Assembly (NCBI GenBank): GCA_905479625.1
Contig: CAJQNF010000078.1
Location: 1-61,138 of the forward strand
DNA: 61,138 nucleotides
Reading direction: 5' to 3'
DNA from: an uncultured Flavobacteriaceae bacterium
GTDB lineage: Bacteria > Bacteroidota > Bacteroidia > Flavobacteriales > Flavobacteriaceae
Shown here: piece after piece, positions 1-14,535 of the stretch
Layout: every line of letters begins with the position of its first letter
Position numbering within the stretch: the stretch's first letter is position 1
Position numbers and translations under genes: made by a program
Notes under the pieces: model-generated
What the model saw: the letters and a program-made list of their open reading frames with translations, nothing else
Databases searched by the model: none
What the model was told of the DNA's origin: nothing

Positions 1-1110
1 TTTTCCGTCATGACTTACATTTATCCTTTTATACAAACCCTTTGTTTTATTTTCAAAAACAATAGAATGACCTTTGCTAGCTGGCATGAAGGGTTCTCCA
101 AAACTCGCTACATCCACTCCGATCAGCTTTAATTTTGTAGATATATCGATATGTGATTCCATTTTTGAATCTACAGATCCAAGCATTTGTTCAACTGCTA
201 CACCCGCCATATCATACCCTGGAGCTACCAAACCATAGATCATTCCATTTAATAATGCTACTTCACCAATGGCCAAAATATTTGGGTCAGAAGTTCTCAT
301 AGAATTATCAACCAACACTCCTCCTCTTTCACCTGTCAACAGGCCACATGATTTAGCTAATTCATCTCTGGGTCTTATTCCTGCTGAAATCACTAACATG
401 TCAACTTCCAAATCAGATTCATCAGAAAAATCCATCCCTGTAATAACACCATTACCCTGAATCTTGCGTGTGGCTTTATTTAAATGGATTTTTATCCCCA
501 TACTTTCAAGCTTGTGTTGGAGTACATTACTACTTCTATGATCCAACTGTCTCGGCATTAATTTTGGAGCAAACTCAACAATATGCGCTTCTAAACCCAT
601 ATCCATTACTGCCTTACCAGCCTCCAATCCAAGTAAACCTCCACCCAAAACTGCAGCTTTTGGTTTTTCAGTACCTTTTTTAATAGTCTCAGCATAGGCA
701 AGCATTCCATCAAGATCTTCAATAGTTCTATAGACAAAAACACCCTTTTTATCCACCCCGCTAATTGGAGGCACAAAAGGAACTGAACCAGTAGCAAGCA
801 CTAGATAATCATATTGATAACTTCCAATATTTTCAGTAACAATTTGTTTAATCTCTCTCTCTATACCCACTACCCTTTCATTCGTAATCAATTCAATGCC
901 ATTGTTCTCATACCAGTCTCGTGGAGACAATTCTAATGAAGACGCATCACCATTTTCAAAGTACTCACTCAAATGAACCCTATCATAAGCTGGTCTAATT
1001 TCTTCACCAAAAACAAGTATTCTATAATTCTTGGCCTCTGTTCGCGCAACCAATTTTTCACAAAACTTATAGCCGACCATGCCATTTCCAACAACAATTA
1101 TAGTTTTCAT
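1..1110 (-). CDS. nirB: Nitrite reductase (NADH) large subunit, N-terminal part (partial)
   Basis: This is the first 370 codons of assimilatory nitrite reductase; the 3' end lies outside the window. NirB is the cytoplasmic subunit that takes electrons from NAD(P)H via FAD and reduces nitrite to ammonium at siroheme. The protein starts MKTIIVVGNGMVG, a typical NirB FAD-binding fingerprint. A second dinucleotide fingerprint (VLGGGLLGLEAG) lies near residue 150, followed by the conserved LMPRQLD segment. The BFD iron-sulfur and siroheme domains would lie in the missing part. It is divergent from the siroheme methyltransferase gene that supplies its cofactor. A TAnnTTTG -7 box (1139-1146) and a copy of the island operator (1145-1160) sit just upstream. 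An unrelated pyridine nucleotide oxidoreductase is unlikely given the nitrate island context. Confidence 0.93.
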   Translation of the reverse strand, partial: MKTIIVVGNGMVGYKFCEKLVARTEAKNYRILVFGEEIRPAYDRVHLSEYFENGDASSLELSPRDWYENNGIELITNERVVGIEREIKQIVTENIGSYQYDYLVLATGSVPFVPPISGVDKKGVFVYRTIEDLDGMLAYAETIKKGTEKPKAAVLGGGLLGLEAGKAVMDMGLEAHIVEFAPKLMPRQLDHRSSNVLQHKLESMGIKIHLNKATRKIQGNGVITGMDFSDESDLEVDMLVISAGIRPRDELAKSCGLLTGERGGVLVDNSMRTSDPNILAIGEVALLNGMIYGLVAPGYDMAGVAVEQMLGSVDSKMESHIDISTKLKLIGVDVASFGEPFMPASKGHSIVFENKTKGLYKRINVSHDGK

Positions 1111-1144: not shown

Positions 1145-1160
1145 TAAGTATTTTTACGTA
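1145..1160. promoter_or_regulatory. Island operator copy 1 (nirB side of nirB/cobA intergenic region)
   Basis: The sequence TAAGTATTTTTACGTA fits the inverted repeat TAMGTATTTWTACKTA seen at five intergenic regions of the nitrate island. Read on the minus strand, its last two bases are also the TA of a perfect -7 box TAGTTTTG (1146 down to 1139) for nirB. Half-site spacing (G to C, 9 bases) matches Crp/Fnr-family sites, so the Crp/Fnr protein encoded beside narK is the likely ligand. This is inference. Confidence 0.6.
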
Positions 1161-1196
1161 TTATTGCAGGGAATTAATCAATTATTTTTAAATAAA

Positions 1197-1212
1197 TACG
1201 TATTTTTATCAT
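1197..1212. promoter_or_regulatory. Weaker operator-like site (cobA side)
   Basis: TACGTATTTTTATCAT has a good left half and a degenerate right half relative to the island operator. It lies inside a perfect 12-bp palindrome AAATACGTATTT (1194-1205). A -7-like TATATTTA follows at 1232-1239, 20 bases before the methyltransferase start codon. Confidence 0.4.
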
Positions 1213-1259
1213 AATTAAAATCTAAGCTGATTATATTTATGATTTATAATTAAAACAGC

Positions 1260-2027
1260 ATGAAAAATTCGAAAGTGATATTAGTAGGTGCCGGCCCAGG
1301 CGATAAAGAATTAATCACGTTAAAAGGTATTAAAGCCATTAAGGCAGCAGATATAATATTTTACGACGCCCTCGTAAATCCTGAACTTCTTGAATTCGCC
1401 AGAAAAAATACTGAACTTATATATGTAGGCAAACGCCGCAATGAAAAAAGATTTTCACAGGACGAAATCCACGAACTCCTTGCTTCAGCAGCATACAAAT
1501 ACGATGTAATAGTCAGGCTAAAAGGTGGGGATCCATTCGTGTTTGGCAGAGGTTCAGAGGAACTGAATTATTTGGAAAACAAAGGTATACAAACCGAAAT
1601 AATTCCCGGAATAAGCAGTGCGCTCGCAGTTCCTGCAACTCAGGGCATCCCTTTAACAAAGCGTGGATTAAACGAAAGTTTCTATGTAATCACGGGTACT
1701 ACATCCGATGGCTCAGTGTCGAAAGACCTGAAATACGGAGCTATGTCAAATGCGACTCTAGTCATATTAATGGGGCTGAAAAATATTGAACCTATCATTG
1801 AAGAAACTCTAAAATACAGGGATGAATCTACGCCCTTTGCTATTATTCAAAATGGCACTAGAGAAGGTGAATCAATCATCCTTGACATTATTCAAAATTA
1901 TGAAACCGCCACAAAAATGATAGACTATTCAAAACCTGGAATCATCGTTATCGGAGATACTGTGGCTGAGCATCCTGCATTTTTTGAGGAGGAAATTCAA
2001 CGTGTATTGGAATCCGTTTTAACATAA
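1260..2027 (+). CDS. cobA: Uroporphyrinogen-III C-methyltransferase (SUMT), nitrate-island copy
   Basis: This SAM-dependent enzyme methylates uroporphyrinogen III at C2 and C7 to give precorrin-2, the first committed step to siroheme, the cofactor of NirB. At 255 aa it is the single-domain form, not fused CysG. The family motifs VGAGPGDKELITLKG (near residue 9), YDALVNPELL, the SAM-binding segment RLKGGDPFVFGRGSEEL and PGISSALAVPATQGIPLTKRG are intact. It is transcribed away from nirB. A second, clearly paralogous copy sits at the end of the sulfite reductase operon (46052-46816), so each siroheme enzyme appears to have its own methyltransferase. The dehydrogenase/ferrochelatase partner is encoded at 15971-16567. 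Confidence 0.93.
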   Translation: MKNSKVILVGAGPGDKELITLKGIKAIKAADIIFYDALVNPELLEFARKNTELIYVGKRRNEKRFSQDEIHELLASAAYKYDVIVRLKGGDPFVFGRGSEELNYLENKGIQTEIIPGISSALAVPATQGIPLTKRGLNESFYVITGTTSDGSVSKDLKYGAMSNATLVILMGLKNIEPIIEETLKYRDESTPFAIIQNGTREGESIILDIIQNYETATKMIDYSKPGIIVIGDTVAEHPAFFEEEIQRVLESVLT

Positions 2028-2134
2028 TAAGCGAGAAGACCTAGGGTGCTTTAAATTGCATTATTATTAATTTTGAGGGCATCAATTTTGAAAATAAAAA
2101 AATTTAATTGCAATATTTTGGATTTTCATATTTC

Positions 2135-2150
2135 TACGTATTTATCATAC
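2135..2150. promoter_or_regulatory. Operator-like half site upstream of narK
   Basis: TACGTATTTATCATAC matches the left half of the island operator and lies 22 bp upstream of the full site at 2157-2172. The two sites start exactly 22 bp apart, roughly two helical turns. Confidence 0.4.
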
Positions 2151-2156
2151 ATAAAA

Positions 2157-2172
2157 TACGTATATATACTTA
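2157..2172. promoter_or_regulatory. Island operator upstream of narK
   Basis: TACGTATATATACTTA is the most symmetric copy, with a perfect GTATATATAC core. Its final TA opens a near-consensus -7 box (TAATTTTT). A perfect TAGTTTTG also lies at 2181-2188. The narK start codon is 40 bases downstream. Confidence 0.6.
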
Positions 2173-2211
2173 ATTTTTATTAGTTTTGTTATTCGTTTCA
2201 AAACAGTAGAT

Positions 2212-3618
2212 ATGATTTCATCGAAAGCAACCAAGCTAGAGCTTCTCAATTTTAAAAGTCTTCCAACAAGAACTTTCTGGATTACATCCATAGCCTTCTT
2301 TCTTTGTTTTTTCGCATGGTTTGGTATCGTACCATTTATGCCAGATGTTGTTAAAGATCTTGGATTAAGCCCAGATCAGAAATGGAACTCAATAATTCTT
2401 GCAGTTACAGGCACCGTATTTGCCCGACTATTGATTGGCAAGTTATGCGATACTCATGGACCAAGGCTAGTGTATACAGCATTACTTTTAACCGGCGCCA
2501 TTCCAGTTATTCTTATAGGGATGTCTCAAACCCCTCTTCAGTTCCTTATCTGTAGATTTTTCATAGGCTTTATAGGCGCCTCTTTTGTCATAACCCAGGT
2601 CCACACTTCATTGATGTTCGCTCCAAATGTTGTGGGTACAGCAAATGCAACTTCTGCGGGATGGGGTAATTTAGGAGGTGGAGCAAACAGATTAGGAATG
2701 CCAATTATTGCCTCTATAGTAGTTAGTTTTGGAATAGCCGAAACCGACTCTTGGCGTTACTCCATGATCATAGCAGGAATTATTTGCCTATTAATGGCTT
2801 TTATATACTATCACTTTACACAAGACACTCCTGAAGGGAATTATAAAGAATTAAGAGCTGCAGGTATAAAACCAATGCATAAAAAAAGTGACGCTGCAAC
2901 CAAAGAAGTACTTAAAGATTATCGCGTCTGGATTCTTTTCATAGTATATGCCTCTTGTTTCGGAGTTGAGCTCACAATATATGGAACCATGGATGATTAC
3001 CTTCAAAACACTTTTCACATCGACAGAATAACTGCGGGTAATATCGTACTCTCTTTTGCAATGATGAATATATTCGCCAGAACATTGGGCGGGTTCTTTG
3101 GCGATAAATTTGGTAAACTAAAAGGCCTTAGAGGTCGGGTAATGCTTCTCTCAATGCTATTAGCTCTTGAAGGTACCATGCTCATATTCTTTTCTAACAT
3201 AAACATTCTCGCACTTGCCATTGTCTTTCTAGTAGCCTTTAGCCTCACCGTTCAAATGGCCGAAGGAGCTACATTTTCAGTGGTGCCATTTATCAATAAA
3301 AAAGCAATCGGCTTAATTTCAGGTATTGTTGGTGCTGGAGGAAATGTTGGTGCCTTTCTAGCGGCAATTCTATTAAAATCTAAATCTGCCACGGCCGAGA
3401 AGATCGCCATAGAAGCAAACCAAGGCAGTAGTATTGACATCATTGACAGGGCACAAGCTACAGCGTCTTCCTTGGCCGTTTCTGACGGATATCTTGTTAT
3501 CGGCGGCCTAATCATTCTAAGCGCCGTAGCGTCTTTAGCTATTAAATTTTCTACAAAAGATGAAAAAGAAATAGCCACCGAAATGCAAATGATTTTAGAA
3601 GTAACTAGCACTAAATAG
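2212..3618 (+). CDS. narK: Nitrate/nitrite MFS transporter (NNP family)
   Basis: This inner-membrane major facilitator protein of the nitrate/nitrite porter family imports nitrate, or exchanges it with nitrite. At 468 aa with about 12 hydrophobic segments it matches the family size. Two nitrate-signature-like glycine-rich motifs are visible: AGWGNLGGG near residue 150 and GIVGAGGNVGA near residue 384. The N-terminal FFLCFFAWFGIVPFMP segment is also typical. The context (nirB, nitrate reductase, NrtABCD) supports assimilation, so a name such as nasA or nrtP would be equally fair. The stop codon lies 7 bases before the Crp/Fnr regulator, implying co-transcription. One full and one partial island operator precede it. 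Confidence 0.92.
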   Translation: MISSKATKLELLNFKSLPTRTFWITSIAFFLCFFAWFGIVPFMPDVVKDLGLSPDQKWNSIILAVTGTVFARLLIGKLCDTHGPRLVYTALLLTGAIPVILIGMSQTPLQFLICRFFIGFIGASFVITQVHTSLMFAPNVVGTANATSAGWGNLGGGANRLGMPIIASIVVSFGIAETDSWRYSMIIAGIICLLMAFIYYHFTQDTPEGNYKELRAAGIKPMHKKSDAATKEVLKDYRVWILFIVYASCFGVELTIYGTMDDYLQNTFHIDRITAGNIVLSFAMMNIFARTLGGFFGDKFGKLKGLRGRVMLLSMLLALEGTMLIFFSNINILALAIVFLVAFSLTVQMAEGATFSVVPFINKKAIGLISGIVGAGGNVGAFLAAILLKSKSATAEKIAIEANQGSSIDIIDRAQATASSLAVSDGYLVIGGLIILSAVASLAIKFSTKDEKEIATEMQMILEVTSTK

Positions 3619-3625
3619 ATAATTT

Positions 3626-4342
3626 ATGTACAGATCTCAAGTACAATGCGACACATGCTCTAACAATCTCTGTTTGATTAAAAAAAGTCTTATTTCTGAC
3701 GAAGACAAACGACTTTCTCAGCAAAAGGTCAATTTGAATTGCAAAAAAGGGCAGCAATTTATTATGGAAGGAACACCCGTTAGCGGTTTGTTTTTTATCT
3801 ACAAAGGAAAGGCCAAGGTTCTAAAAACAGGCATCTATGGCAAAGAACAGATCCTGAGGCTTGTCAAAAATGGGGAAACAATTGGTCATCGTGGTTTTGG
3901 AACAAAGAAGAAATACGGCATCAGTTCTGTGGCTCTTGAAGATTCAATTCTTTGCAACTTCAGCAATGAGACCCTAGAATTAATGATGAAAAAGATTCCA
4001 AAGCTAACCTATGAACTCATGCTCTTCTATGCAGATGAACTCAATCGATCAGAAACTAAAGTTAAAACTTTGGCTCAGATGACGGTTAGAGAAAAAGTCA
4101 TAGACGCCCTATTATTTATACATCGGAAATTTGGAACCAATCATAAAGGGTGTATCAACATTCAACTCAGCAGACAAGAAATTGCCGATTATTCAGGCAC
4201 AACGGTAGAACAAGTTATCAGAACAATTTCATCTTTAAAATCTGAAGGCCTGTTAACTTGCGTTGGAAAAACCATCTCTATAAACAATCAGGGCCAACTG
4301 AAAAACGAGATTTCCGAGCATAATTTCTACTTAGATCAATGA
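3626..4342 (+). CDS. Crp/Fnr-family transcription regulator
   Basis: This 238-aa regulator has a cyclic-nucleotide-binding-like beta-roll (about residues 36-140) and a C-terminal winged HTH (about 165-225). The recognition helix reads V194-E195-x3-R199, the FNR-type arrangement (V-E-x-x-x-R), but the Ser that FNR uses before the Arg is replaced by Ile198. The N-terminus has a C8-x2-C11-x4-C16 cluster and another Cys at 39, reminiscent of FNR [4Fe-4S] ligands, though the last spacing differs from FNR (x5). It is co-transcribed with narK and is the best candidate to bind the repeated 16-bp operator. The effector (oxygen, NO, nitrate-related or none) cannot be read from the sequence. Confidence 0.85.
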   Translation: MYRSQVQCDTCSNNLCLIKKSLISDEDKRLSQQKVNLNCKKGQQFIMEGTPVSGLFFIYKGKAKVLKTGIYGKEQILRLVKNGETIGHRGFGTKKKYGISSVALEDSILCNFSNETLELMMKKIPKLTYELMLFYADELNRSETKVKTLAQMTVREKVIDALLFIHRKFGTNHKGCINIQLSRQEIADYSGTTVEQVIRTISSLKSEGLLTCVGKTISINNQGQLKNEISEHNFYLDQ

Positions 4343-4381
4343 GCTAACACCCAACCTTCATCAAATATTCCGATAATGACT

Positions 4382-4406
4382 AAAACTACGTATTGAGCGT
4401 AGTTTT
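4382..4406 (+). terminator. Rho-independent terminator after narK-crp
   Basis: A perfect 9-bp stem, AAAACTACG with CGTAGTTTT, encloses a 7-base loop and runs into further T residues, 40 bases after the regulator stop codon. It contains a chance TACGTA, which is stem sequence rather than an operator. Confidence 0.75.
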
Positions 4407-4467
4407 TTATTTCTATGTGATTCAGTTGCTTAGTCAATTTTCCTGCCATTTGTCATGTTTAAAACTG

Positions 4468-4508
4468 ACTAAAAGATGATTTTTAGAGGGCATATCACAT
4501 CTTTTAGT
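4468..4508. repeat. Perfect 11-bp inverted repeat upstream of the nrt operon
   Basis: ACTAAAAGATG (4468-4478) is repeated in exact inversion as CATCTTTTAGT (4498-4508), with 19 bases between. Arm centres are 30 bp apart, about three helical turns. It lies just upstream of the predicted -7 box, a position suited to an activator dimer pair. No poly-T follows, so a terminator is less likely. Confidence 0.5.
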
Positions 4509-4522
4509 TCAACCATGGCCTA

Positions 4523-4530
4523 TACATTTG
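4523..4530 (+). promoter_or_regulatory. Predicted -7 promoter box for the nrt operon
   Basis: TACATTTG matches the Bacteroidota consensus TAnnTTTG exactly. A TTTAG at 4503-4507 could serve as the -33 element. The island operator follows immediately, which would place it around the transcription start. Confidence 0.5.
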
Positions 4531-4537
4531 CTTCAAC

Positions 4538-4553
4538 TAAGTATTTATACGTA
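4538..4553. promoter_or_regulatory. Island operator upstream of nrtA
   Basis: TAAGTATTTATACGTA is identical over all 16 bases to the copy upstream of the nitrate reductase gene (10946-10961). It ends 20 bases before the nrtA start codon and lies downstream of a perfect -7 box, so a repressive role at this promoter is plausible. Confidence 0.65.
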
Positions 4554-4573
4554 ATTAAACTAAATATCACATT

Positions 4574-5959
4574 ATGAGATCAACATTATTCGCTTTATGC
4601 CTGTTAATTCTGAGTAGCGCATTCTATTCTTGCGGTCAGAAAGAATCTAAAAAAACAAACCCTGAAGAAGAGGCTGTTCCTGAAACCAAATCACTTACTA
4701 AAACTCTTGATGTTGAAAAACCTCAATTAACTTTTGGCTTCATCAAATTAACTGATATGGCCCCTTTGGCCATCGCAAAAGAAAAAGGTTTTTTTGAAGA
4801 AGAAGGTCTTTTCGTTTCGGTAGAAGCTCAATCAAATTGGAAAAACATTCTAGACAGGGTAATTGACGGACAACTAGATGGATCTCATATGTTGGCCGGT
4901 CAACCTATTGCTGCCGGATCAGGTTTTGGACGTCAGGCTGAACTCGTCACCCCTTTTTCAATGGACTTAAATGGAAATGGAATAACAGTTTCAAACGACG
5001 TATGGTCCAAAATGAAACCACACATTCCAAAAGACGCTGATGGCAAACCCATACATCCGATAAAAGCCGAAACTTTGAAACCCGTAATTGACAGTTATAA
5101 ATCATCTGGAAAAGCCTTCAAAATGGGCATGGTATTTCCCGTATCAACCCATAATTATGAAATCCGATACTGGCTCGCGTCTGCCGGCATACACCCCGGA
5201 ATGTACACCAAAGACAATATCCAAGGACAGGTTGATGCTGAAGTACTACTATCAGTTACACCTCCACCTCAAATGCCCGCTACGCTGGAAGCCGGAACAA
5301 TTCATGGCTACTGCGTTGGAGAACCGTGGAATCAACAGGCTGTTTTTAAAGGAATCGGTGTTCCCGTTACTACGAATTATGACATCTGGAAAAACAATCC
5401 TGAAAAAGTATTTGTCATGACCAAAAAGTTTGTGGAAGAGAATCCTAACACTGCTATTGCAGTTACAAAAGCCCTCATCAGAGCCGGAAAATGGCTTGAT
5501 ACTCCTGGTAACAGAAAAGAAGCTGTTAAAATCTTGTCTATGCCTCAATATGTGGGTGCAGATGAAGTGGTCTTAGCAAACTCTATGACCGGAACATTTG
5601 AATTTGAAAAAGGTGATAAAAGATCTATGCCTGACTTCAATGTATTCTACAGGTATAACGCTACCTATCCTTTTTATTCAGACGGGGTTTGGTTTTTGAC
5701 TCAAATGAGAAGATGGGGTCAGATTCCTGATACAAAACCTGCTGATTGGTATGACTCAAAAATTAAGGAAATCTATCGCCCGGACATTTGGAAAAAAGCC
5801 GCTGAACTATTGGTTACTGAAGGGCATATCCCAGCTGTCGATATCCCTGAAACTGATGGCTACAAACCAGCGACAACTGACTTTATTGATGGAAAGAACT
5901 TCGACGCCAAAGATCCGATAGCTTATATAAACAGCTTTAAGATTGGAAACAAAGACTAA
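4574..5959 (+). CDS. nrtA: Nitrate ABC transporter substrate-binding lipoprotein (NrtA/CmpA family)
   Basis: This is the periplasmic solute receptor of a nitrate-type ABC importer. The first 20 residues form a lipoprotein signal ending in C20 (hydrophobic stretch, then AFYSC-GQ), so the mature protein is probably anchored to a membrane. An acidic/lysine-rich linker (about 22-50) precedes a two-lobed NrtA-like domain starting at [17 protein letters not shown]. At 461 aa it is the usual family length. Bicarbonate (CmpA) and nitrate (NrtA) receptors look alike; the surrounding nitrate genes favour nitrate. It is the first gene of a permease-ATPase-ATPase-porin operon. Confidence 0.88.
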
Positions 5960-6011
5960 GAACGAATTTGATCAAACACCTGATCAACAAACGGAATAAA
6001 AACATCACGTA

Positions 6012-7112
6012 ATGAGCAAAAAATTATCAAAGAGCATCCGTTTTATAGGATTGGGATTTTTAGAGCCTGTTATCTCCCTTATTCAAGGAAAGGAAACGAA
6101 AAAAAACCTGGTCCTGGTTCTCAAAAAAATAATCGCCCCTTTGGCTTCTTTTATATTATTTATAGGAGTATGGCAAACAGGAGCCCAGCTACTTTATGAC
6201 AAAGAAGCCGATTATAGAATTGAAAAAGCAAGGACAGAACAAGGGGATGAAGCAGCCATAAAAATGAAGGAATGCATCATTTCTGGTGATGTAAGTTGCC
6301 AGCCAAATACGCTGCCGTCACCTGCTCAAGTCAAGGTTTCCTTTTTTAAGCTATTTGAAGATCATAAAATCATCCGTCAGGACAAAAAAGATTTCAAGGA
6401 GAAAACGGCTTCCTTAAATCAAAAAAGAGTTGCTGATGGTAAAGAGGCCATTACCTATACCGGACGACCTTCGTTTGTGGATCAAATCATTACCAGTATT
6501 AAAACCGTATTTGCCGGTTTCTTACTTGCCATACTGATAGCAGTTCCTATAGGAATCATTATCGGTCTCAGCGAAACATTAAGAGATTCTTTTAACTGGC
6601 TTATTCAAATATTCAAACCTGTATCTCCTGTTGTCTGGCTGCTTTTGGTATTTATGATTGTAAAGACGCTTACAAAAGATTCAGAAACTGATAGTGCTTT
6701 TATCATATCCTTCATTAGCGTTGGTCTCTGCTCAATGTGGGCAACTTTAGTGAACACAACCATGGGAGTAGCAACCGTAGATCAGGATTTTCTTAACGTA
6801 GCAAAGGTGCTGAAACTTGGCTCTTTTCAAAAAGTGTTTAAGATCATTTTACCGTCTTCTCTTCCGTTGATATTCACTGGCTTGAGAATAACCTTATCTG
6901 TTGCCTGGATGGTGTTGATTGCCATCGAACTTCTTGCTCAGAGCCCTGGTTTAGGGTCATTTGTCTGGGAAGAATTTCAAAATGGAGCCAATGATTCGAA
7001 TTCCAAAATAATTGTGGCCATGTTCGTTATAGGAATCATAGGCTTCTTACTTGACAGGATCATGCTTACCATTCAAAAATTAATCTCCTTCAACAAAAAC
7101 GAAGGGAACTAA
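6012..7112 (+). CDS. nrtB: Nitrate ABC transporter permease with periplasmic insertion
   Basis: This inner-membrane subunit belongs to the NrtB/SsuC binding-protein-dependent permease family. At 366 aa it exceeds the usual 250-300. The first membrane segment (about residues 36-55) is separated from the remaining transmembrane core by roughly 90 extra hydrophilic residues (about 57-150), which contain two cysteines and many charged residues. The core shows [20 protein letters not shown] and the EAA-like loop region before the last helices ([20 protein letters not shown]). It sits 52 bases after nrtA and 10 bases before the first ATPase. Confidence 0.88.
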
Positions 7113-7122
7113 AATAAAATTC

Positions 7123-7989
7123 ATGGCCTATTTAGAACTTAAGAATGTACAGAAAAGCTATGGTCAAGGTATCGGAAGCCAAAGCGTACTGCAAGACATT
7201 AACCTTGAAATTGAAGAAGGAGAATTCGTTGCGATAGTAGGGTTTTCTGGTAGTGGAAAAACAACTCTGGTCAATCTTATCAGCGGCTTACAAGAACCGA
7301 GCTCAGGTGAAATTCTTTTTAAGGGGATTCCTGTATCTGGAACAAGCCATGAACGAGGTGTAATTTTTCAAAATTATTCATTACTGCCTTGGCTGACCGT
7401 CTATCAAAATGTATGGATTGCGGTAAAAGAATCTTTCCCAAACAAAGGTAAAAAGGAGCGAGACGAAATAGTCAGATCTTATCTAGATATGGTGAATCTC
7501 AGCCCCGCAATCGACAAACGCCCAAAAGAACTTTCGGGAGGTATGAAACAAAGAGTTGCTGTGGCCAGAACCTTGGCAATGGATCCTGAAATGATCCTTA
7601 TGGACGAACCGCTTGGAGCACTGGATGCTTTAACCAGAGGGAACCTCCAGGATGAAATCCTGCACATCTGGGAAAAAAACAAAAGAACGGCCTTACTCAT
7701 AACAAACGATGTGGATGAAGGAATATATATGGCTGACAGGATTATACCGCTTATACCAGGACCTAACGCAACCTTAGGGCCTGAATTCAAAATCAACATC
7801 AAACGTCCTAGAGATAAAACAGCATTGAACGACAACCCCGAATTTAAAAAGATCAGAAATGAGATCATTGCGTATCTAATGAAAATTGGGAATGAAAGCA
7901 ATGAATCGAATGAATCTTCATACATCCTGCCAGATCTGGAACCAAAGGATCTCAGATGGGATTTTCGCTCAAAATTAAAACTATCATAA
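7123..7989 (+). CDS. nrtC: Nitrate ABC transporter ATPase 1 (NrtC/D-like)
   Basis: This cytoplasmic ATPase energises nitrate import. Walker A (GFSGSGKTT), the Q-loop, the signature LSGGMKQR and Walker B with catalytic Glu (MILMDEPLG) are intact. The H-loop is unusual: where the family has ITHD this protein has ITND, with Asn at residue 195 (codon AAC at 7705-7707). It lacks the C-terminal NrtA-like domain found in cyanobacterial NrtC. Paired with the next ATPase, whose signature motif is altered, it would form a heterodimer with one non-consensus ATP site. The C-terminus has a short repetitive [10 protein letters not shown] stretch. Confidence 0.88.
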
Positions 7990-8000
7990 AAAATAATATC

Positions 8001-8789
8001 ATGGAAAAAGGATTTGCTCCTGCAGATATTATGCTTGATCTGCAAAATCTAAAAAAAGTTTACCCAACACCAAAGGGAGATTATATAGTTCTTGAAAATT
8101 TGAACTTACAAATCAAAAAAGAGGAATTTGTAACCATAATTGGACACTCAGGTTGCGGTAAAACGACAATGTTATCAATGATCGCCGGCCTAAACCCAAT
8201 ATCTGATGGAAAAATATCTATCCTCGGATCAGCAATTAGAGGACCTGGGCCTGATCGCGGTGTTATTTTTCAGGCACCTAGCCTGATGCCATGGCTTACA
8301 GCTATGGAAAATGTAATGCTGGGTGTTAAACAGGTATTCCCTCATGCCAATCGAAAGCAACGGGCAGATATCTGTAAATATTACTTAAGCCGTGTTGGTT
8401 TAGAAGGGTCTTTTCATAAAAAAGCTGCGGCCTTATCACAGGGAATGCAGCAAAGGGTTGGTATAGCTCGCGCTTTTGCCATCAAACCAAGAGTACTGCT
8501 TCTTGATGAACCATTTGGCATGCTTGATTCACTTACCAGAGGAAACCTGCAAGATGTACTTATTGAAATCTGGAACAAAGAGAAAATAACTGCTGTCATG
8601 ATTACGCATGATGTGGATGAAGCAATTTTTCTGGCAGATCGTGTGGTCATGATGACAAGTGGCCCCAAAGCCAAGATAGGTGATATCCTTAAGGTTGATT
8701 TTGAAAGACCAAGAACCCGTAAAACTGTTATCGAACACCCTGATTACTATAATTATAGAAAATACCTTATTGACTTTTTAGAACATTAA
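8001..8789 (+). CDS. nrtD: Nitrate ABC transporter ATPase 2 (NrtD-like)
   Basis: This is the second ATPase of the importer, 262 aa. I chose ATG 8001 ([11 protein letters not shown]) because the in-frame upstream ATG at 7956 would overlap the previous gene by 34 bases and adds no conserved sequence. Walker A (GHSGCGKTT), Walker B (LLLDEPFG) and the H-loop (ITHDVDEA) are intact. The signature motif, however, is LSQGMQQR, with Gln147 in place of the first Gly of LSGG. This complements the Asn in the H-loop of the first ATPase: both substitutions would fall in the same composite ATP site of a heterodimer. Confidence 0.87.
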
Positions 8790-8809
8790 CTCAACAAAAT
8801 ATTAAAAAA

Positions 8810-10078
8810 ATGAAAACAAAATTATTATTTGCCCTTTTGCTGTTTATAAGTATAAATGCAACGGCACAGTTTACAATTGACGGTGAATTCAGACCACGAA
8901 CAGAATACAGACATGGTTACGGAACGTTAATCGCTAAAGATGCAGATCCGGGATATGGTATTTCAACAAGGGCCAGACTAAACTTCGGATTTAAAAAAGA
9001 CAATTACAGTTTTTATATGAGTCTACAAGATGTGCTAGTATGGGGAGAGAACCGACAAATTCTTCCTAAAGATTTAAATAATTCCTTCGCTGTTTTTCAA
9101 GTTTGGGCCAAGATCGATTTTAGCGAAACCTGGAATACCAAAATTGGTAGACAAGTTCTTTCATATGATGACCAACGGATCATGGGTGGATTAGATTGGG
9201 CACAACAAGGCAGAAATCACGATGCCATATTGATCAAACACAAAAAAGATGACTTCCTTTTAGACCTCGGATTTGCCTATAATCAGGACTATGATAATAT
9301 TTCAGGATTTCAGTCAGTGGGAAATGCTTATAACACCAAAGGTTTCTTCTCCTATAAAACAATGCTTTATGGTTATATGAAAAAAACCTGGACCAGTTTT
9401 TCTGCAAGTCTTTTGTTTTTGAACAACGGTTTTCAAAATTTCGAAGATGACCTGGTTACGGCAGATGGCATCAGTAATCTTCAAACATTCGGAACCCATT
9501 TGAATTGGAAGAAGGGCAAATTTGGAGCCAGCTCAAATCTGTTTCTTCAGACGGGTGAACGACAAGGGAAAATTAGTGTTAAAGGAGCCTATTTAGCTAG
9601 TCTTGACCTCTCATTCAAACTGTCAGATAAAATTGGATTAGGACTTGGCTCGGAAATTATCAGTGGAAATGATGCTGAAGCCGGAGAAACCGGAGCTTTC
9701 TTTCCATTGTATGGTACAAATCACAAATTTAACGGATTTATGGATTATTTCTATGTAGGTAATCATGCCAATTCGATTGGATTGTTTGATGTGCATCTTG
9801 GTGCGAATTTTAAGATTTCTGAAAAATCAGGTTTGCTGGTTAAAGTGCTTAATTTCTCAGGAGAAAAAGCCCTTCCAAGTGGAGATAAATCATTAGGTAC
9901 TGAACTAGATTTAGTCTACACCCATAAATTCAAAGGATTTCTGATAAAAGGTGGCTATTCACATATGTTTGCCTCTGACGGCATGTACGAATTAAAAGGT
10001 CTCGACAAAGGTTTGGCGGCAGACACCCAAAATTGGGCCTGGGTTATGCTTGTTTTAAAACCGAAAATCCTAAATTAG
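8810..10078 (+). CDS. Outer-membrane porin, alginate-export-like beta barrel
   Basis: This 422-aa outer-membrane barrel has a cleavable signal peptide (MKTKLLFALLLFISINATAQ) and alternating aromatic/polar strands throughout, resembling the alginate_exp/porin family. Early motifs include FRPRTEYRHGYG and the strand TKIGRQVLSYDDQRIMGG. It ends in the aromatic-rich strand typical of barrels (WAWVMLVLKPKILN). As the last gene of the nrt operon, 20 bases after nrtD, it probably lets nitrate cross the outer membrane. Substrate specificity is inferred from context only. Confidence 0.78.
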   Translation: MKTKLLFALLLFISINATAQFTIDGEFRPRTEYRHGYGTLIAKDADPGYGISTRARLNFGFKKDNYSFYMSLQDVLVWGENRQILPKDLNNSFAVFQVWAKIDFSETWNTKIGRQVLSYDDQRIMGGLDWAQQGRNHDAILIKHKKDDFLLDLGFAYNQDYDNISGFQSVGNAYNTKGFFSYKTMLYGYMKKTWTSFSASLLFLNNGFQNFEDDLVTADGISNLQTFGTHLNWKKGKFGASSNLFLQTGERQGKISVKGAYLASLDLSFKLSDKIGLGLGSEIISGNDAEAGETGAFFPLYGTNHKFNGFMDYFYVGNHANSIGLFDVHLGANFKISEKSGLLVKVLNFSGEKALPSGDKSLGTELDLVYTHKFKGFLIKGGYSHMFASDGMYELKGLDKGLAADTQNWAWVMLVLKPKILN

Positions 10079-10082
10079 ATGC

Positions 10083-10128
10083 ATAAAACCTATGCATTTA
10101 TCAGTCAATGCATAGGTTTTATATTTTT
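10083..10128 (+). terminator. Strong rho-independent terminator after the nrt operon
   Basis: ATAAAACCTATGCAT (10083-10097) pairs perfectly with ATGCATAGGTTTTAT (10108-10122), a 15-bp stem with a 10-base loop, followed by a T run. It begins 4 bases after the porin stop codon. Confidence 0.88.
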
Positions 10129-10136
10129 TCTCAAAC

Positions 10137-10152
10137 AAGGTAAAAATACGTA
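10137..10152. promoter_or_regulatory. Island operator plus -7 box upstream of the response regulator
   Basis: AAGGTAAAAATACGTA is the reverse-oriented operator (TACGTATTTTTACCTT on the other strand). Its terminal TA is also the start of a perfect -7 box TACATTTG (10151-10158). This is the same overlap geometry seen at nirB. Confidence 0.6.
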
Positions 10153-10183
10153 CATTTGGTCTTTGGTATAAACAAACAGAATT

Positions 10184-10852
10184 TTGGAAAATAAAATAAC
10201 TATTGCCCTTGTCGATGACCATATGCTGGTTAGAAACGGAATCAAATCTTTACTGGAAGAAGAACGAGATTTACACGTTATCGCAGAAGGCTCAAATGGT
10301 TATGAAGCCATTGAAATAGTGGAAAAACATAAACCTGATATTCTGATCATTGATGTTCGTATGCCTGAATTAAATGGCATCGATGCCGTTCAAAAAATTC
10401 AAGAAAAAGGTAACAAGTCCAGATCAATTGTACTTTCAATGCATGACTCTGAAGAATATATTCTACAGTCAATAAAAGCTGGAGCTTTTGGTTATCTTTT
10501 AAAAGACACGGATAAAAAAGAATTCATAAAAGCTATCCATACCGTGCATTCCGGAGAGAAGTATTTTAGTGGAGATATTTCTAATATCATCGTTTCCAAC
10601 TTACTTCAAAATGATAATACGTCTAAGGTTTCAACCAGTTCAAATCAAAATGATGATCCATTCAGCCTTACAAAAAAGGAAAAGCAAATCCTAAAATTAA
10701 TCCTGACAGGAAAGACCAACTCAGAAATTTCTGATGCATTGCAAAACAGCAAAAGAACAATAGAAACACATCGTTTTAATCTTATGAAGAAAATGAATGT
10801 GAAAAACCTGATCGAGCTTTCAACAAAAGCTTCTCAATTTGGCTTAAATTAA
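10184..10852 (+). CDS. NarL/LuxR-family response regulator (orphan)
   Basis: This 222-aa protein has an N-terminal receiver domain with the acidic pair D11-D12 and phospho-acceptor D57 (LIIDVRMPELNG), and a conserved Lys in YLLKD. The C-terminal LuxR-type HTH (about 157-215) contains LTKKEKQILKLILTGKTNSE. No histidine kinase is encoded in the window, so its sensor is elsewhere. The start appears to be TTG, because no ATG lies upstream in frame and the next in-frame ATG (M14) would remove the acidic pair. It sits between the nrt operon and the nitrate reductase, with an island operator at its promoter. It probably controls this island, but the signal is unknown. Confidence 0.87.
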   Translation: MENKITIALVDDHMLVRNGIKSLLEEERDLHVIAEGSNGYEAIEIVEKHKPDILIIDVRMPELNGIDAVQKIQEKGNKSRSIVLSMHDSEEYILQSIKAGAFGYLLKDTDKKEFIKAIHTVHSGEKYFSGDISNIIVSNLLQNDNTSKVSTSSNQNDDPFSLTKKEKQILKLILTGKTNSEISDALQNSKRTIETHRFNLMKKMNVKNLIELSTKASQFGLN

Positions 10853-10945
10853 AACCTAAATCTTCCATTTTAAGACTTTGTCAATATATACCTCAATTAA
10901 TATGGATATATCAATATTAGGCAGGCATTTTTGAATTATAATTTC

Positions 10946-10961
10946 TAAGTATTTATACGTA
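10946..10961. promoter_or_regulatory. Island operator upstream of nitrate reductase
   Basis: TAAGTATTTATACGTA is identical to the nrtA copy. Its last TA starts a near-consensus -7 box TATTTATG (10960-10967). The distance to the nitrate reductase start codon is 31 bases. Confidence 0.65.
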
Positions 10962-10992
10962 TTTATGTAATTTAGCAACTAGTTAAATCTAC

Positions 10993-13900
10993 ATGACTAT
11001 GGCTGTTCAAAAGTCTTATAAATCAACTTGTTCCTATTGTGGTGTTGGCTGCGGTATCATTGTTCATAAGGATACCAAAGACAATCTCTCTATTCAAGGA
11101 GATCCGGATCACCCTGTGAACAAGGGAATGCTATGTTCCAAGGGAATGAATTTGAATTATGTTGTACAAAACACTTCGGAAAGAATTCTATATCCTGAAA
11201 TGCGCTGGAACAGAAATCACCCAATGCAGAGAGTGTCCTGGGATGTAGCTCTTAAAAGAGCTACTGCCATATTTAAATCATTAATAAATAAATACGGCCC
11301 TGACAGTGTTGGTTTTTATATTTCAGGTCAATGCCTGACAGAAGAATACTATATCATTAACAAACTCGCAAAGGGCTTTATTGGAACTAACAATATTGAT
11401 ACGAATTCCAGACTTTGTATGAGCTCTGCAGTTGTTGGATACAAAAAAGCAGTTGGAGAAGATTCTGTCCCTATTTCGTACGAAGATATCGAACTTGCAG
11501 ACTGCTTTATGATCGCTGGTGCAAACCCTGCCTGGTGCCACCCCATTTTATTTAGAAGATTAGAAAAACACAAAGAAGATAATCCCAAAGTAAAGATCAT
11601 AGCTGTAGATCCCAGAAAAACGGCTACTACCGCAATGGCTGATCTACATCTTCAGATCATCCCCGGGACAGATGTAGTCTTGTTTAATGCAATTGCCAAG
11701 AGACTTATAGAAAAGAATAAAATTGACAAGCGGTTTATTAAGAACCATACTGATAATTTCGAAGCCTTAAAAGAGCTGGTTTTTAAGACCTCATTGAGCC
11801 AGGCAGCAAAAATTTGCGGCATTACAGTTAATGAAATTAAAAAAGCTGCTCAATATATTGGTCATTCGATGAATTTCATCAGTATGTGGACCATGGGGTT
11901 GAATCAAAGTGTGATCGGCGTAGACAAAAATGTCTCATTACTTAATATTTCCTTATTGACAGGACAAATCGGAAGACCTGGAGCGGGCCCTTTTTCATTA
12001 ACTGGTCAACCGAATGCGATGGGTGGAAGAGAAGTTGGTGGCATGGCTAACTTATTAGCGGCTCATAAAGACCTTTCAAATGACTTACACAGAAAAGAAG
12101 TACAAGATTATTGGGGCAGCAACGAAATCCAAAAAGAGCCGGGCTTAACGGCTACAGAGATGTTTGATGCGCTTCATGAAGGCAAACTCAAAGCCATATG
12201 GATCGTTTGTACAAACCCTGTAGTTAGCCTTCCGGAATCCAAAAAAGTTGAAGCCGCTTTGGAAAAAGCCAAATTCGTCATTGTTCAGGATATCTCCCAT
12301 GATTCGGAAACCTGCAAATATGCTGACTTGTTGCTACCCGCAGCTGGATGGTTAGAAAAAGAAGGCGTCATGACAAATTCTGAAAGAAGGTTAAGTTATC
12401 TGGAAAAAGGAGTAGAACCTCCCGGAGAGGCCCTTCCCGATGCTGAAATCTTTGCCAGATTTGCTCAGGAAATGGACTATAAAGGCTTTAATTATGAAAA
12501 TTCAAGCGACATTTTTGATGAGCATTGCAGGCTTACTAAAAATACAAATATTGATATTTCAGGTCTTAGTTACGATCGACTAAAAAAAGAAGGCAGCAAA
12601 CAATGGCCGGTTCCTGACAAAGAACATCAGGGCACACCCAGGTTATTTACTGATCGAAAATTCTACACACCAAACGAGAAGGCCCAATTTAACATCCCTA
12701 AACAAACGATAAATCAATCAGAAAAGGTTTCAAAAGAATATCCACTGATACTAACTACAGGCAGAATCAGAGACCAATGGCATACCAGAACCAGAACAGG
12801 TAAAGTTAAAAAATTAGGTACTCATATTCCAAAACCTTTTCTTGAAATGAATAGTGTTGATGCTTATGAGCGAAAGATTAAAGATGGAGATGTTGTCATT
12901 ATTAATAACCCAAGAGGTGAAGTGAGGGTGACCGCCCAACTAAGTTTTGAGATCAGAAAGGGTGTTGTTTTTATGCCTATGCATTGGGGAAAGATTCTCA
13001 ATAATGATTTTGGCCGAGCAAATAATCTTACCAATAACCTGATCGATCCCGTATCAAAAGAGCCCGATTTTAAATTTAGCGCCGTTGAAGTAAATAAGTT
13101 TGAAAAACCAGTGCAAAAAATATGCGTAATTGGCGCCGGAGCCGCTGCTTACAGATTTGTACAGTCTTACCGTGAAGCAAATGAGACAGATGAAATTATC
13201 ATATTTTCAAGAGAAGCTGAACCCTTCTATAACAGAGTCCTTTTGCCAGAATATGTTAGTGATGAATTATCCTGGGAAGCACTGAAAAAAATCAAAAAAG
13301 GAGAAATAGATAAACTAAAATTAACATTGCATCCTGAAATCTCTGTCAATCATGTTGATAAAAAACATAAGGTAATTACTGATAGTTTGGGTCAGGAACA
13401 TTCTTATGACATACTGATTATGGCTATGGGAAGCCGTGCCTTTGTTCCTTCAAATGCACAATTAGAGCAACCCGGAAGGTTCACTCTGAGAAACAGATTA
13501 GATGCTGAAAGATTAAAAAAACACCTTAACAATACAAATTTAAATCCTGCAGAACAGCATGTAGTCATAGTTGGTGGTGGTCTTCTAGGATTAGAATTAG
13601 CAGCAACGCTGAATAAAAAGAACATACAGATCACCATTATCCAAAGAGCTTCAAGACTTATGGAGCGACAACTTGATCTGGTTGCAAGTAGAATTTTAGC
13701 AGAGGACGTTCAAGAAAGAGGAATTCAAATCTATTTTGACAATGAAGTAAGCACCGTGTTCCAAGATAACAAACCAAATTCTTTAGAAGTAACACTTAAG
13801 ACAGGTAAGGTTATTTACAGCAATGCTATTGTATATGCGATAGGCACTATTCCCAATGTTGAAATTGCAAAAAGCGCAAAAATTGATTGCAGAAGAGGTG

Positions 13901-14535
13901 CCATAGTCAATCAGCACATGCAAACTAACGATCCGTCTATATTCGCCTTGGGCGAAATAGCAGAATTCAACAATTCCCTTTACGGTATAACCTCAGCAGC
14001 TGAACAACAAGCAGATATCGCAGTTAAATATCTTCTTGGTGACTTAAGCAGCATTTATAACGGTTCTGTTTTAATGAACATTCTTAAATTCGAGGACCTG
14101 GATCTTTGCAGCATAGGAACAGTCAATATCCCAAAAAATGACAATAACTATGAAGAAGTCGTCTTTACGGATTTGAATAAGCGGTATTATAAAAAATGTA
14201 TTATTCATAATGATCGACTGATTGGAGCAGTGCTCATAGGCGACAAAAATGAATTTGCTGAATACAAGACATTAATTGAAGAAAGAATTGAGCTGGGTGA
14301 CAAGAGAGATGAGATTTTAAGGTCAAATGAAGTATCAGAACCTGTTAAAGGAAAACTTGTTTGCTCCTGTAGTCAAATTGGACAGGGAAATTTAGAAGAA
14401 ACAGTTCTTTCAGGTTGTTCAGATTTTAATGAATTATGCAAACTGACTGGTGCCGGGTTAGGATGTGGAAGCTGTAAACCCGAAGTTAAAGATATATTCA
14501 GTCAAACCGTCTCGTCAAGAGTTTTAACCGTTTAA
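10993..14535 (+). CDS. nasA: Assimilatory nitrate reductase fused to NirB-like FAD and BFD domains
   Basis: This is a cytoplasmic molybdopterin nitrate reductase of 1180 aa, far longer than plain NasA/NarB (about 700-900). Residues 1-700 are the Mo-bisMGD catalytic part. It has the [4Fe-4S] ligands C13-x2-C16-x3-C20-x27-C48, the probable Mo-ligand C142 in NSRLCMSSAV, and the C-terminal molybdopterin-binding domain starting near LILTTGRIRDQWH. Residues from about 708 form a FAD/NAD(P)-dependent oxidoreductase like the NirB/NasC N-terminus (KICVIGAGAAAYRF; VVIVGGGLLGLELA). A BFD-like [2Fe-2S] domain closes the protein (C1124-S-C1126 and C1158-x2-C1161). One polypeptide may thus carry electrons from NAD(P)H to nitrate. 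M1 or M3 could be the start. A rubredoxin-bearing gene follows 4 bases later. Confidence 0.92.
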   Translation: MTMAVQKSYKSTCSYCGVGCGIIVHKDTKDNLSIQGDPDHPVNKGMLCSKGMNLNYVVQNTSERILYPEMRWNRNHPMQRVSWDVALKRATAIFKSLINKYGPDSVGFYISGQCLTEEYYIINKLAKGFIGTNNIDTNSRLCMSSAVVGYKKAVGEDSVPISYEDIELADCFMIAGANPAWCHPILFRRLEKHKEDNPKVKIIAVDPRKTATTAMADLHLQIIPGTDVVLFNAIAKRLIEKNKIDKRFIKNHTDNFEALKELVFKTSLSQAAKICGITVNEIKKAAQYIGHSMNFISMWTMGLNQSVIGVDKNVSLLNISLLTGQIGRPGAGPFSLTGQPNAMGGREVGGMANLLAAHKDLSNDLHRKEVQDYWGSNEIQKEPGLTATEMFDALHEGKLKAIWIVCTNPVVSLPESKKVEAALEKAKFVIVQDISHDSETCKYADLLLPAAGWLEKEGVMTNSERRLSYLEKGVEPPGEALPDAEIFARFAQEMDYKGFNYENSSDIFDEHCRLTKNTNIDISGLSYDRLKKEGSKQWPVPDKEHQGTPRLFTDRKFYTPNEKAQFNIPKQTINQSEKVSKEYPLILTTGRIRDQWHTRTRTGKVKKLGTHIPKPFLEMNSVDAYERKIKDGDVVIINNPRGEVRVTAQLSFEIRKGVVFMPMHWGKILNNDFGRANNLTNNLIDPVSKEPDFKFSAVEVNKFEKPVQKICVIGAGAAAYRFVQSYREANETDEIIIFSREAEPFYNRVLLPEYVSDELSWEALKKIKKGEIDKLKLTLHPEISVNHVDKKHKVITDSLGQEHSYDILIMAMGSRAFVPSNAQLEQPGRFTLRNRLDAERLKKHLNNTNLNPAEQHVVIVGGGLLGLELAATLNKKNIQITIIQRASRLMERQLDLVASRILAEDVQERGIQIYFDNEVSTVFQDNKPNSLEVTLKTGKVIYSNAIVYAIGTIPNVEIAKSAKIDCRRGAIVNQHMQTNDPSIFALGEIAEFNNSLYGITSAAEQQADIAVKYLLGDLSSIYNGSVLMNILKFEDLDLCSIGTVNIPKNDNNYEEVVFTDLNKRYYKKCIIHNDRLIGAVLIGDKNEFAEYKTLIEERIELGDKRDEILRSNEVSEPVKGKLVCSCSQIGQGNLEETVLSGCSDFNELCKLTGAGLGCGSCKPEVKDIFSQTVSSRVLTV

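Follow-up and report, generated by a model that had tools for sequence, protein, structure and literature searches.

In Escherichia coli, the response regulator NarL prefers inverted heptamers set two bases apart, 16 bp in total (PMC4549865, PMC2718512), as in the 7-2-7 site TACCCCTAAAGGGGTA (PMC4549865). Comparative genomics has furthermore described HcpR, FNR-family regulators of nitrogen-oxide genes, of which HcpR2 also occurs in Bacteroides (PMC1274295). The present analysis concerns a 16-bp inverted repeat that recurs at the promoters of a nitrate-use island of an uncultured Flavobacteriaceae bacterium. The island occupies the left end of the window, a contig (C78) of 61,138 nucleotides from a genome assembly of 2,671,614 bases that is 84% complete. 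The repeat is a real and widely shared DNA word at nitrate-use promoters of marine Flavobacteriaceae. Specifically, it is very probably the operator of a NarL-type response regulator (RR) paired with a PilJ/PAS/HisKA_3 kinase, and a Crp/Fnr-family protein encoded in the same island (gene crp) would form a second layer that acts on another dyad.

Within the window, exact copies of TAMGTANNNNTACKTA (TAMGTA-N4-TACKTA) start at 1145, 2157, 4538 and 10946, upstream of nirB/cobA, narK, nrtA and nasA. The nirB operator (1145-1160, minus strand), divergent to cobA, ends in a TA that it shares with the -7 box TAGTTTTG (1139-1146, also minus strand). On the plus strand, the narK operator (2157-2172) is followed by a -7 box TAGTTTTG at 2181-2188 (offset 24, counted from operator start to the TA of the box, slightly loose boxes being allowed), and the nasA operator (10946-10961) by a -7-like TAATTTAG at 10968-10975 (offset 22). 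The nrtA operator (4538-4553, plus strand) lies downstream of its -7 box TACATTTG (4523-4530, plus strand), at about +4 to +19. A degenerate operator with two mismatches precedes the RR gene (10137-10152, plus strand), and its last TA is again that of the -7 box, here TACATTTG (10151-10158). The nrtA and nasA copies are identical, both reading TAAGTATTTATACGTA. A preliminary description of this DNA had claimed these sites, the identity of two of them and their relations to the -7 boxes, and all of this is borne out; its two weaker sites are single TACGTA half-sites on the plus strand, one on the cobA side (1197-1202; the 16-mer at 1193 has three mismatches) and one upstream of narK (2135-2140; the 16-mer at 2125 has two).

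The genome-wide scan that the same description had proposed returns four exact matches in 2,671,614 bases, all inside the island, against 0.28 expected under a first-order Markov model, and eight more places with one mismatch. With up to three mismatches allowed, the window holds 72 matches where 71 are expected, which is chance level, so that only near-exact copies carry meaning. The consensus was derived from the same sites, which makes these counts partly circular; the independent test lies in the orthologous promoters.

For this comparison, 91 related loci were drawn from the best 80 of 105 found by a scan with the Crp protein and from 11 found via gene-order search. A Crp ortholog at 50-80% identity is present in 89 of them, and two (L055, L056) have a distant homolog only; the nearest relative, a Flavobacteriaceae bacterium, reaches 80% identity in Crp, and a few of the 80 Crp-found loci stand under other titles, such as L088 (Labilibaculum). 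Gene matches were excluded when their identity fell below the threshold set for the gene (40-60%), when they began beyond query residue 40 or when less than 250 bp of upstream sequence was available. Within 300 bp upstream, the exact motif is found at nirB in 32/32, cobA in 4/4, narK in 33/34, nrtA in 68/72 and nasA in 24/32 cases. It also precedes crp itself in 46 of the 91 loci, a point that the preliminary description did not contain. RR promoters carry it in 12 of 41 cases, or 28 of 41 with at most one mismatch. In the same loci, the exact motif is absent upstream of nrtB (0/62), nrtC (0/67), nrtD (0/65) and the gene after nasA (0/22), and it occurs once in 65 cases before the outer-membrane gene omp. 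The 179 permuted palindromes that served as controls give means of 0.00-0.38 per gene class. The final 130 bp ahead of nirB, narK and nrtA genes contain 144 GTA-N4-TAC seeds; 140-143 of them have the outer T and A, and 141 have A or C at motif position 3.

Across 126 loci that together contain 341 exact sites, a set whose extra stretches were chosen for holding sites, the site-adjacent genes include those for globin (30 loci), MoeA (19), Crp (40) and a truncated globin (2), with one representative each of globin, MoeA and truncated globin checked by Pfam. The nitrate-island regulon marked by a shared inverted repeat, as first proposed from the window, is thus well supported by orthologous promoters and by site-adjacent genes. 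Exact operator-like sites also stand before sdhC (L181, L189, L208), odhA (L182, L188, L192) and a peroxiredoxin gene (L183, L187); with only three, three and two loci, and with odhA and peroxiredoxin confined to one genus, these genes were not accepted as regulon members.

The response regulator and kinase that accompany the motif

The proposed reader of the operator is encoded at 10184-10852 (plus strand) and carries the Pfam domains Response_reg (5.9e-29) and GerE (3.8e-18). A profile of its family finds NarL (1a04) as the best solved structure (2.4e-44). The protein stays below the NCBIfam equivalog cut-offs for NarL (163.7 versus 250 bits), NarP (128.3 versus 343) and the best model, MctR (180.8 versus 300); judged by its sequence, it belongs to the NarL family and is not NarL itself. 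The two kinases scanned have PilJ, PAS, HisKA_3 and HATPase domains, with a sensor box that we take to resemble that of NarX.

The motif can be written as two inverted heptamers in 7-2-7 layout, TAMGTAT-NN-ATACKTA. Of 438 heptamers, 340 have T at position 7, and position 3 is split between A (217) and C (221); the G at position 4 follows from the way the motif is defined. The nine-base G-to-C spacing, which had been equated with that of CRP and FNR sites, is indeed present but not specific to them, since the 16-bp layout of NarL gives the same spacing (PMC4549865). A neighbouring Crp gene and this spacing are therefore insufficient to assign the palindrome.

Because 80 of the loci had been picked by Crp, they are unfit for testing Crp dependence, and this test relies on a sample of 249 genomes, which are linked by kinship within one family and hence not independent, together with Crp-less loci. 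The RR is found in 60 of the 249 genomes, the kinase in 59 and Crp in 44, and all 44 Crp genomes fall within the 60. A profile search of the 60 RR genomes missed the kinase only in the source genome, whose nirB operon runs off the contig. Of the kinase matches, 54/59 span the PilJ region.

The main statistic was computed on the AT-spacer form of the motif, as repeats inflate raw counts of TAMGTA-N4-TACKTA. In this form, all 44 genomes with RR and Crp hold at least two sites (mean 4.91, minimum 2), all 16 with the RR and no Crp hold at least one and 15 of them at least two (mean 2.88), and 47 of the 189 with neither hold at least one (mean 0.39). The difference between RR-only genomes and those with neither is marked (Mann-Whitney p 4e-14). 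Allowing any spacer preserves this ranking, with a weaker separation: at least two sites occur in 44/44, 16/16 and 73/189 genomes, with means of 7.86, 5.12 and 2.34 (RR-only versus neither, p 5e-6). Raw genome counts as a sign of the regulon were set aside as misleading when taken alone. The inflating repeats include TACGTATTTATACGTA pairs spaced 32-33 bp apart in G064 and G191, TACGTAACTTTACGTA in G163 and TACGTAGTTCTACGTA in G300. The TACGTATTTATACGTA pairs lie at many places in G064 and G191 (L085, L169, L171, L173, L175), which are without a close Crp ortholog, and look like a dispersed repeat.

Individual islands show the same pattern. G128 and G332 have operator-bearing islands and no ortholog of the island Crp with all candidates scored; in both, the RR gene neighbours that of the kinase, a large protein, with DUF4202, nirD and nirB next to it (the domains of kinase and DUF4202 protein were scanned in G332). 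Three genera contain both Crp states (G128 versus G002, G124, G148 and others; G133 versus G420; G429 versus G208). Crp-less loci (L227-L242, L201, L202, L217) have exact operators before nirB, narK, nasA, nrtA, cobA, omp and the RR gene, not each gene in each locus. G606, which belongs to another family, combines the RR and the kinase with operators at omp, narK and nirB, and no Crp is encoded within 20 kb. The locus of G591 (61% GC, RR 51%) has no full motif match; of the 12 TACGTA words in its 20 kb, 10 fall within two promoter regions, those of nirB and of nasA/omp. The motif thus follows RR and kinase also in the absence of Crp, which makes the RR the common factor.

Several observations weigh against this assignment. 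The half-site misses the NarL heptamer consensus TACYNMT, having G and not a pyrimidine at position 4. Single permuted palindromes peak at 31/72 (nrtA) and 25/91 (crp), and 23 of the 341 exact sites lie out of reach of any gene start. Five of the 59 kinase matches start after the PilJ region. The genome searches scored the best 11 candidates for Crp, 12 for the RR and 5 for the kinase, with G128 and G332 rechecked on all candidates, so that some gene absences may be misses. The AT-spacer form, which is present at least twice in 15 of the 189 RR-less genomes and at least three times in seven, was selected after the data were seen; the 73 RR-less genomes with at least two any-spacer sites owe many of them to repeats. 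Finally, genomes with RR and Crp hold more sites than those with the RR alone (p 1e-5), which would be expected as well if Crp were the reader; part of this excess comes from crp and globin promoters.

Operator position and the sign of control

The flavobacterial sigma-A -7 box, TAnnTTTG, extends from -12 to -5, with its TA at -12/-11 (PMC9723704). At nirB, a -7-like box stands at offset 14 in 31 of 32 promoters (strict TAnnTTTG in 13/32), and at crp in 34 of 46. Of the 33 narK operators, 14 have the box at offset 14 and 15 have it at offset 26; of the 24 nasA operators, 8 have it at offset 14 and 14 at 22-25. RR promoters are mixed (n=28; offset -8 in 6, 22-25 in 7). At nrtA, TAnnTTTG lies 13-18 bp before the operator in all 68 operator-bearing promoters (offset -13 to -18). 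Near-identical rows were removed before promoter logos were made. Several relatives (e.g. L141, L147, L148) have nasA promoters whose -7 boxes take the form TAnnTTGC, like the SM5 motif of Flavobacterium psychrophilum, which its authors ascribe to an alternative sigma factor (PMC9723704).

Given the place of the TA, offset-14 operators span about -26 to -11, and the other operators lie about one helical turn further upstream or, at nrtA, just past the start site. All of these places overlap the stretch covered by polymerase, so that repression is the plainest reading; a NarL site at -4/+6 likewise serves repression of frdA (PMC4549865). Operator placement points to an RR that acts mainly as a repressor, which we regard as reasonably likely.

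In the proposed mechanism, the kinase known from the nirB operon of relatives would partner the RR, and an RR dimer would sit on two inverted TAMGTAT heptamers with two bases between them. The dimer would cover the spacer between the -33 and -7 elements, together with the TA of the latter, at nirB, at crp, at the RR gene of the window and at part of the narK and nasA promoters, would bind about one turn further upstream at the remaining narK and nasA promoters, and would lie just past the start site at nrtA in Crp-bearing islands. Most likely, it would repress these promoters until nitrate is sensed. Release would then be joint, comprising transport, nitrate and nitrite reductases, sirohaem and molybdenum-cofactor genes, globin and crp.

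The foremost alternative, possible though distinctly less probable, is that the RR binds the same site as an activator within the core promoter, where it would take over the role of the missing -33 element, as spacer-binding activators do. Offset-14 promoters are almost without TTG at the -33 place, which fits activator-dependent promoters, and the offsets gather in two groups, at 14 and at 22-26, separated by roughly a helical turn. Overlapping operator pairs 10 bp apart also stand beside the -7 box. In addition, nitrate induction suits a NarX-like kinase, which normally phosphorylates in nitrate; repression would need the opposite sign. On the other hand, activation is hard to picture where the operator follows the -7 box, as it does at nrtA of Crp-bearing islands (68/68) and at some RR promoters (6 at -8), and NarL near +1 represses frdA (PMC4549865). 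A fuller version of this alternative is somewhat less probable still. Here, the RR would activate sigma-A promoters of Bacteroidota from about -18.5, with the operator serving as upstream half of the -7 box and as stand-in for the -33 element, movable by one turn; in Crp lineages, nrtA would be activated by an Fe-S Crp at -41.5 and the operator would be a brake. To our knowledge, activation from about -18.5 is a geometry of MerR-type activators only.

The Crp/Fnr protein and a candidate second dyad

With the RR as repressor on the 16-bp repeat, the preferred reading, the Crp/Fnr-family protein (3626-4342, plus strand; Pfam cNMP_binding and HTH_Crp_2) is proposed as a second regulator. Its cysteines C8, C11, C16 and C110 are kept in 92, 93, 92 and 90 of 93 sequences, and an FNR of known structure aligns with it at C8, C11 and C110, with C16 one residue off. 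These residues appear to be four cysteines of FNR type, through which the protein may sense by an Fe-S cluster. Its NCBIfam scores are 74 bits for the Fnr model (cut-off 228) and 41.4 for NtcA (cut-off 244.95).

When 50 non-redundant nrtA promoters are aligned on the -7 box, a second dyad becomes visible, T-35 G-34 ... C-25 A-24 T-23, with a G-to-C spacing of nine and its centre 29.5 bp before the TA of the box. This puts it near -41.5, the place of a class II activator. At that place, 51/72 nrtA and 12/65 omp promoters contain TG-N8-CA; the ten other gene classes lack it, and slid controls reach at most 1. The dyad at omp is close to ATGA-N6-TCAT, a form that 20/65 omp and 2/72 nrtA regions contain and that no other class shows. 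In Crp-less loci, TG-N8-CA is found in 0/6 nrtA and 0/14 omp promoters; four of these six nrtA promoters have a TAnnTTTG, at or after the operator end. As the dyad occurs with Crp at nrtA and omp and is missing from Crp-less promoters, the most fitting role for Crp is that of a further layer in the control of uptake. Among the 60 RR genomes of the sample, 44 have Crp, which would bind TG-N8-CA (in its stronger form ATGA-N6-TCAT) at about -41.5 and activate nrtA, and also omp where omp has its own promoter. The Crp gene itself lies behind an operator in about half of the loci.

The window adds less to this picture, as its own candidate, GAGGGCATATCACATC (4486-4501, plus strand; centre 29.5 bp before the -7 TA), has the right half CAT and a degenerate left half, which counts against the two-layer arrangement. 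A weight matrix for the dyad scores the window within the range of random sequence and leaves 4486-4501 outside the 15 best places, so that the dyad gains credibility only through its place relative to the -7 box.

Further features adjoin these elements. In nrtA promoters of Crp-bearing islands (e.g. L101; 4471-4480 in the window), a block, AAAAAGAGGT, spans positions -52 to -43 relative to the -7 TA. The four A that open it are kept in 98-100% of the 50 non-redundant rows, and a form of it occurs in 34/72 nrtA regions versus 3 regions across all other classes. After crp, at 4382-4406, an inverted repeat AAAACTACG...CGTAGTTTT followed by T is likely a terminator that holds a decoy TACGTA. L046 of G015 carries two tandem crp orthologs (10636-12212), and G196 and G421 also have two matches.

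The preliminary description had the island Crp/Fnr protein itself bind TAMGTA-N4-TACKTA, with Ile198 shifting its specificity away from the FNR half-site, which now appears improbable. Its appeal is evident: the crp gene lies in the island, the G-to-C spacing is nine bases, the site occurs in 46/91 crp promoters, Ile198 is kept in 90/93 sequences, and Crp-bearing genomes hold more sites. However, the same promoters carry sites in the 16 of 60 RR genomes without a found Crp ortholog, and likewise in G606; around the distant Crp homologs of L055 (42-43%) and L056 (38-39%), no site with 0-1 mismatches exists in 20 kb; and the second dyad tracks Crp instead. Crp as main reader of the 16-bp site was rejected because Crp-less islands keep their operators and the second dyad follows Crp. 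The residue Ile198 was read correctly, but TG-N8-CA, another dyad with equal spacing, is the more likely candidate for a Crp site. Least probable of all is that the repeat, in place of an operator, belongs to an extended promoter recognized by a specific sigma factor. The TA shared with the -7 box in many promoters and the SM5-like boxes of some nasA promoters speak for it, but the dyad symmetry in both halves and the varying offset (14, 22-26, -15), with no fixed place relative to the start, make this very unlikely.

The island and described systems

From its left end, the window holds, in order, nirB (cut), cobA, narK, the Crp/Fnr gene, four nrt genes, the outer-membrane gene, the RR gene and the nasA fusion. 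The contig ends within nirB (1-1110, minus strand); L087, a close relative, shows the operon running on with nirD, a DUF4202 gene and a sensor kinase gene. In many islands, a DUF4202 protein is encoded between nirD and kinase, for instance in L202 (3487-4071) and L087 (3972-4559). The remaining genes lie on the plus strand. The narK product (2212-3618), a nitrate/nitrite transporter of the major facilitator superfamily, matches NCBIfam TIGR00886 (2.6e-90) with 303.2 bits, slightly below the 311.7 cut-off. Open reading frames at 4574-8789 correspond to nitrate transporter genes of the ATP-binding cassette type, nrtA, nrtB, nrtC and nrtD; the first matches NMT1_2, and the other three are presumably as labelled, going by gene order. 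The open reading frame omp (8810-10078), in relatives the second place of the candidate Crp dyad, is assumed to encode an outer-membrane/porin-like protein. By Pfam, nasA (10993-14535) fuses a molybdopterin nitrate reductase to NirB-like pyridine nucleotide reductase and BFD [2Fe-2S] domains. Directly 3' of it, and adjoining nasA in several relatives as well, 14540-15964 encodes a nitrite/sulfite-reductase half domain with a C-terminal rubredoxin.

The system resembles NarX-NarL/NarQ-NarP of E. coli in its NarL-family RR, its PilJ and HisKA_3 kinase, its 16-bp 7-2-7 sites and its nirB target. It differs in serving assimilatory genes, in its heptamer (TAMGTAT versus TACYNMT), in operators that lie inside the core promoter and in a kinase that has a PAS domain and lies in the nirB operon. 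The island Crp in turn shares with FNR the Crp/Fnr family, aligned cysteine ligands (structures such as 9qlt and 5e44) and a candidate class II position at -41.5; unlike FNR, it has CX2CX4C in place of CX2CX5C and Ile in place of Ser in the recognition helix, and it is island-specific. Its candidate half-site would be ATGA, that of FNR being TTGAT, and the candidate dyad ATG-N8-CAT does not match the FNR target TTGAT-N4-ATCAA. By sequence, the best solved relative of the window Crp is 2gau, also of the Crp/Fnr family (1.8e-29, residues 20-224), a match that omits the N-terminal cysteines and an entry that names no function. NtcA of cyanobacteria is likewise a Crp-family regulator of nitrate assimilation, but its sites are GTA-N8-TAC. 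HcpR differs in its motifs, GTAACnnnnGTTAC or TTGACnnnnGTCAA, and in its hcp targets (PMC1274295).

Among the open-licence papers listed by searches aimed at this regulon, judged by title and opening part of the abstract, none describes it; most subscription papers fall outside this scope. With a regulator pair, a scannable operator, a target list and natural crp-less relatives now at hand, the control of nitrate use becomes directly testable. The components are of known kinds, namely a NarL-type system and an FNR-type protein; new, as far as can be told, are the heptamer, a Bacteroidota regulon for assimilatory genes, operators that lie on the -7 box and an nrtA promoter that would combine two layers of control.

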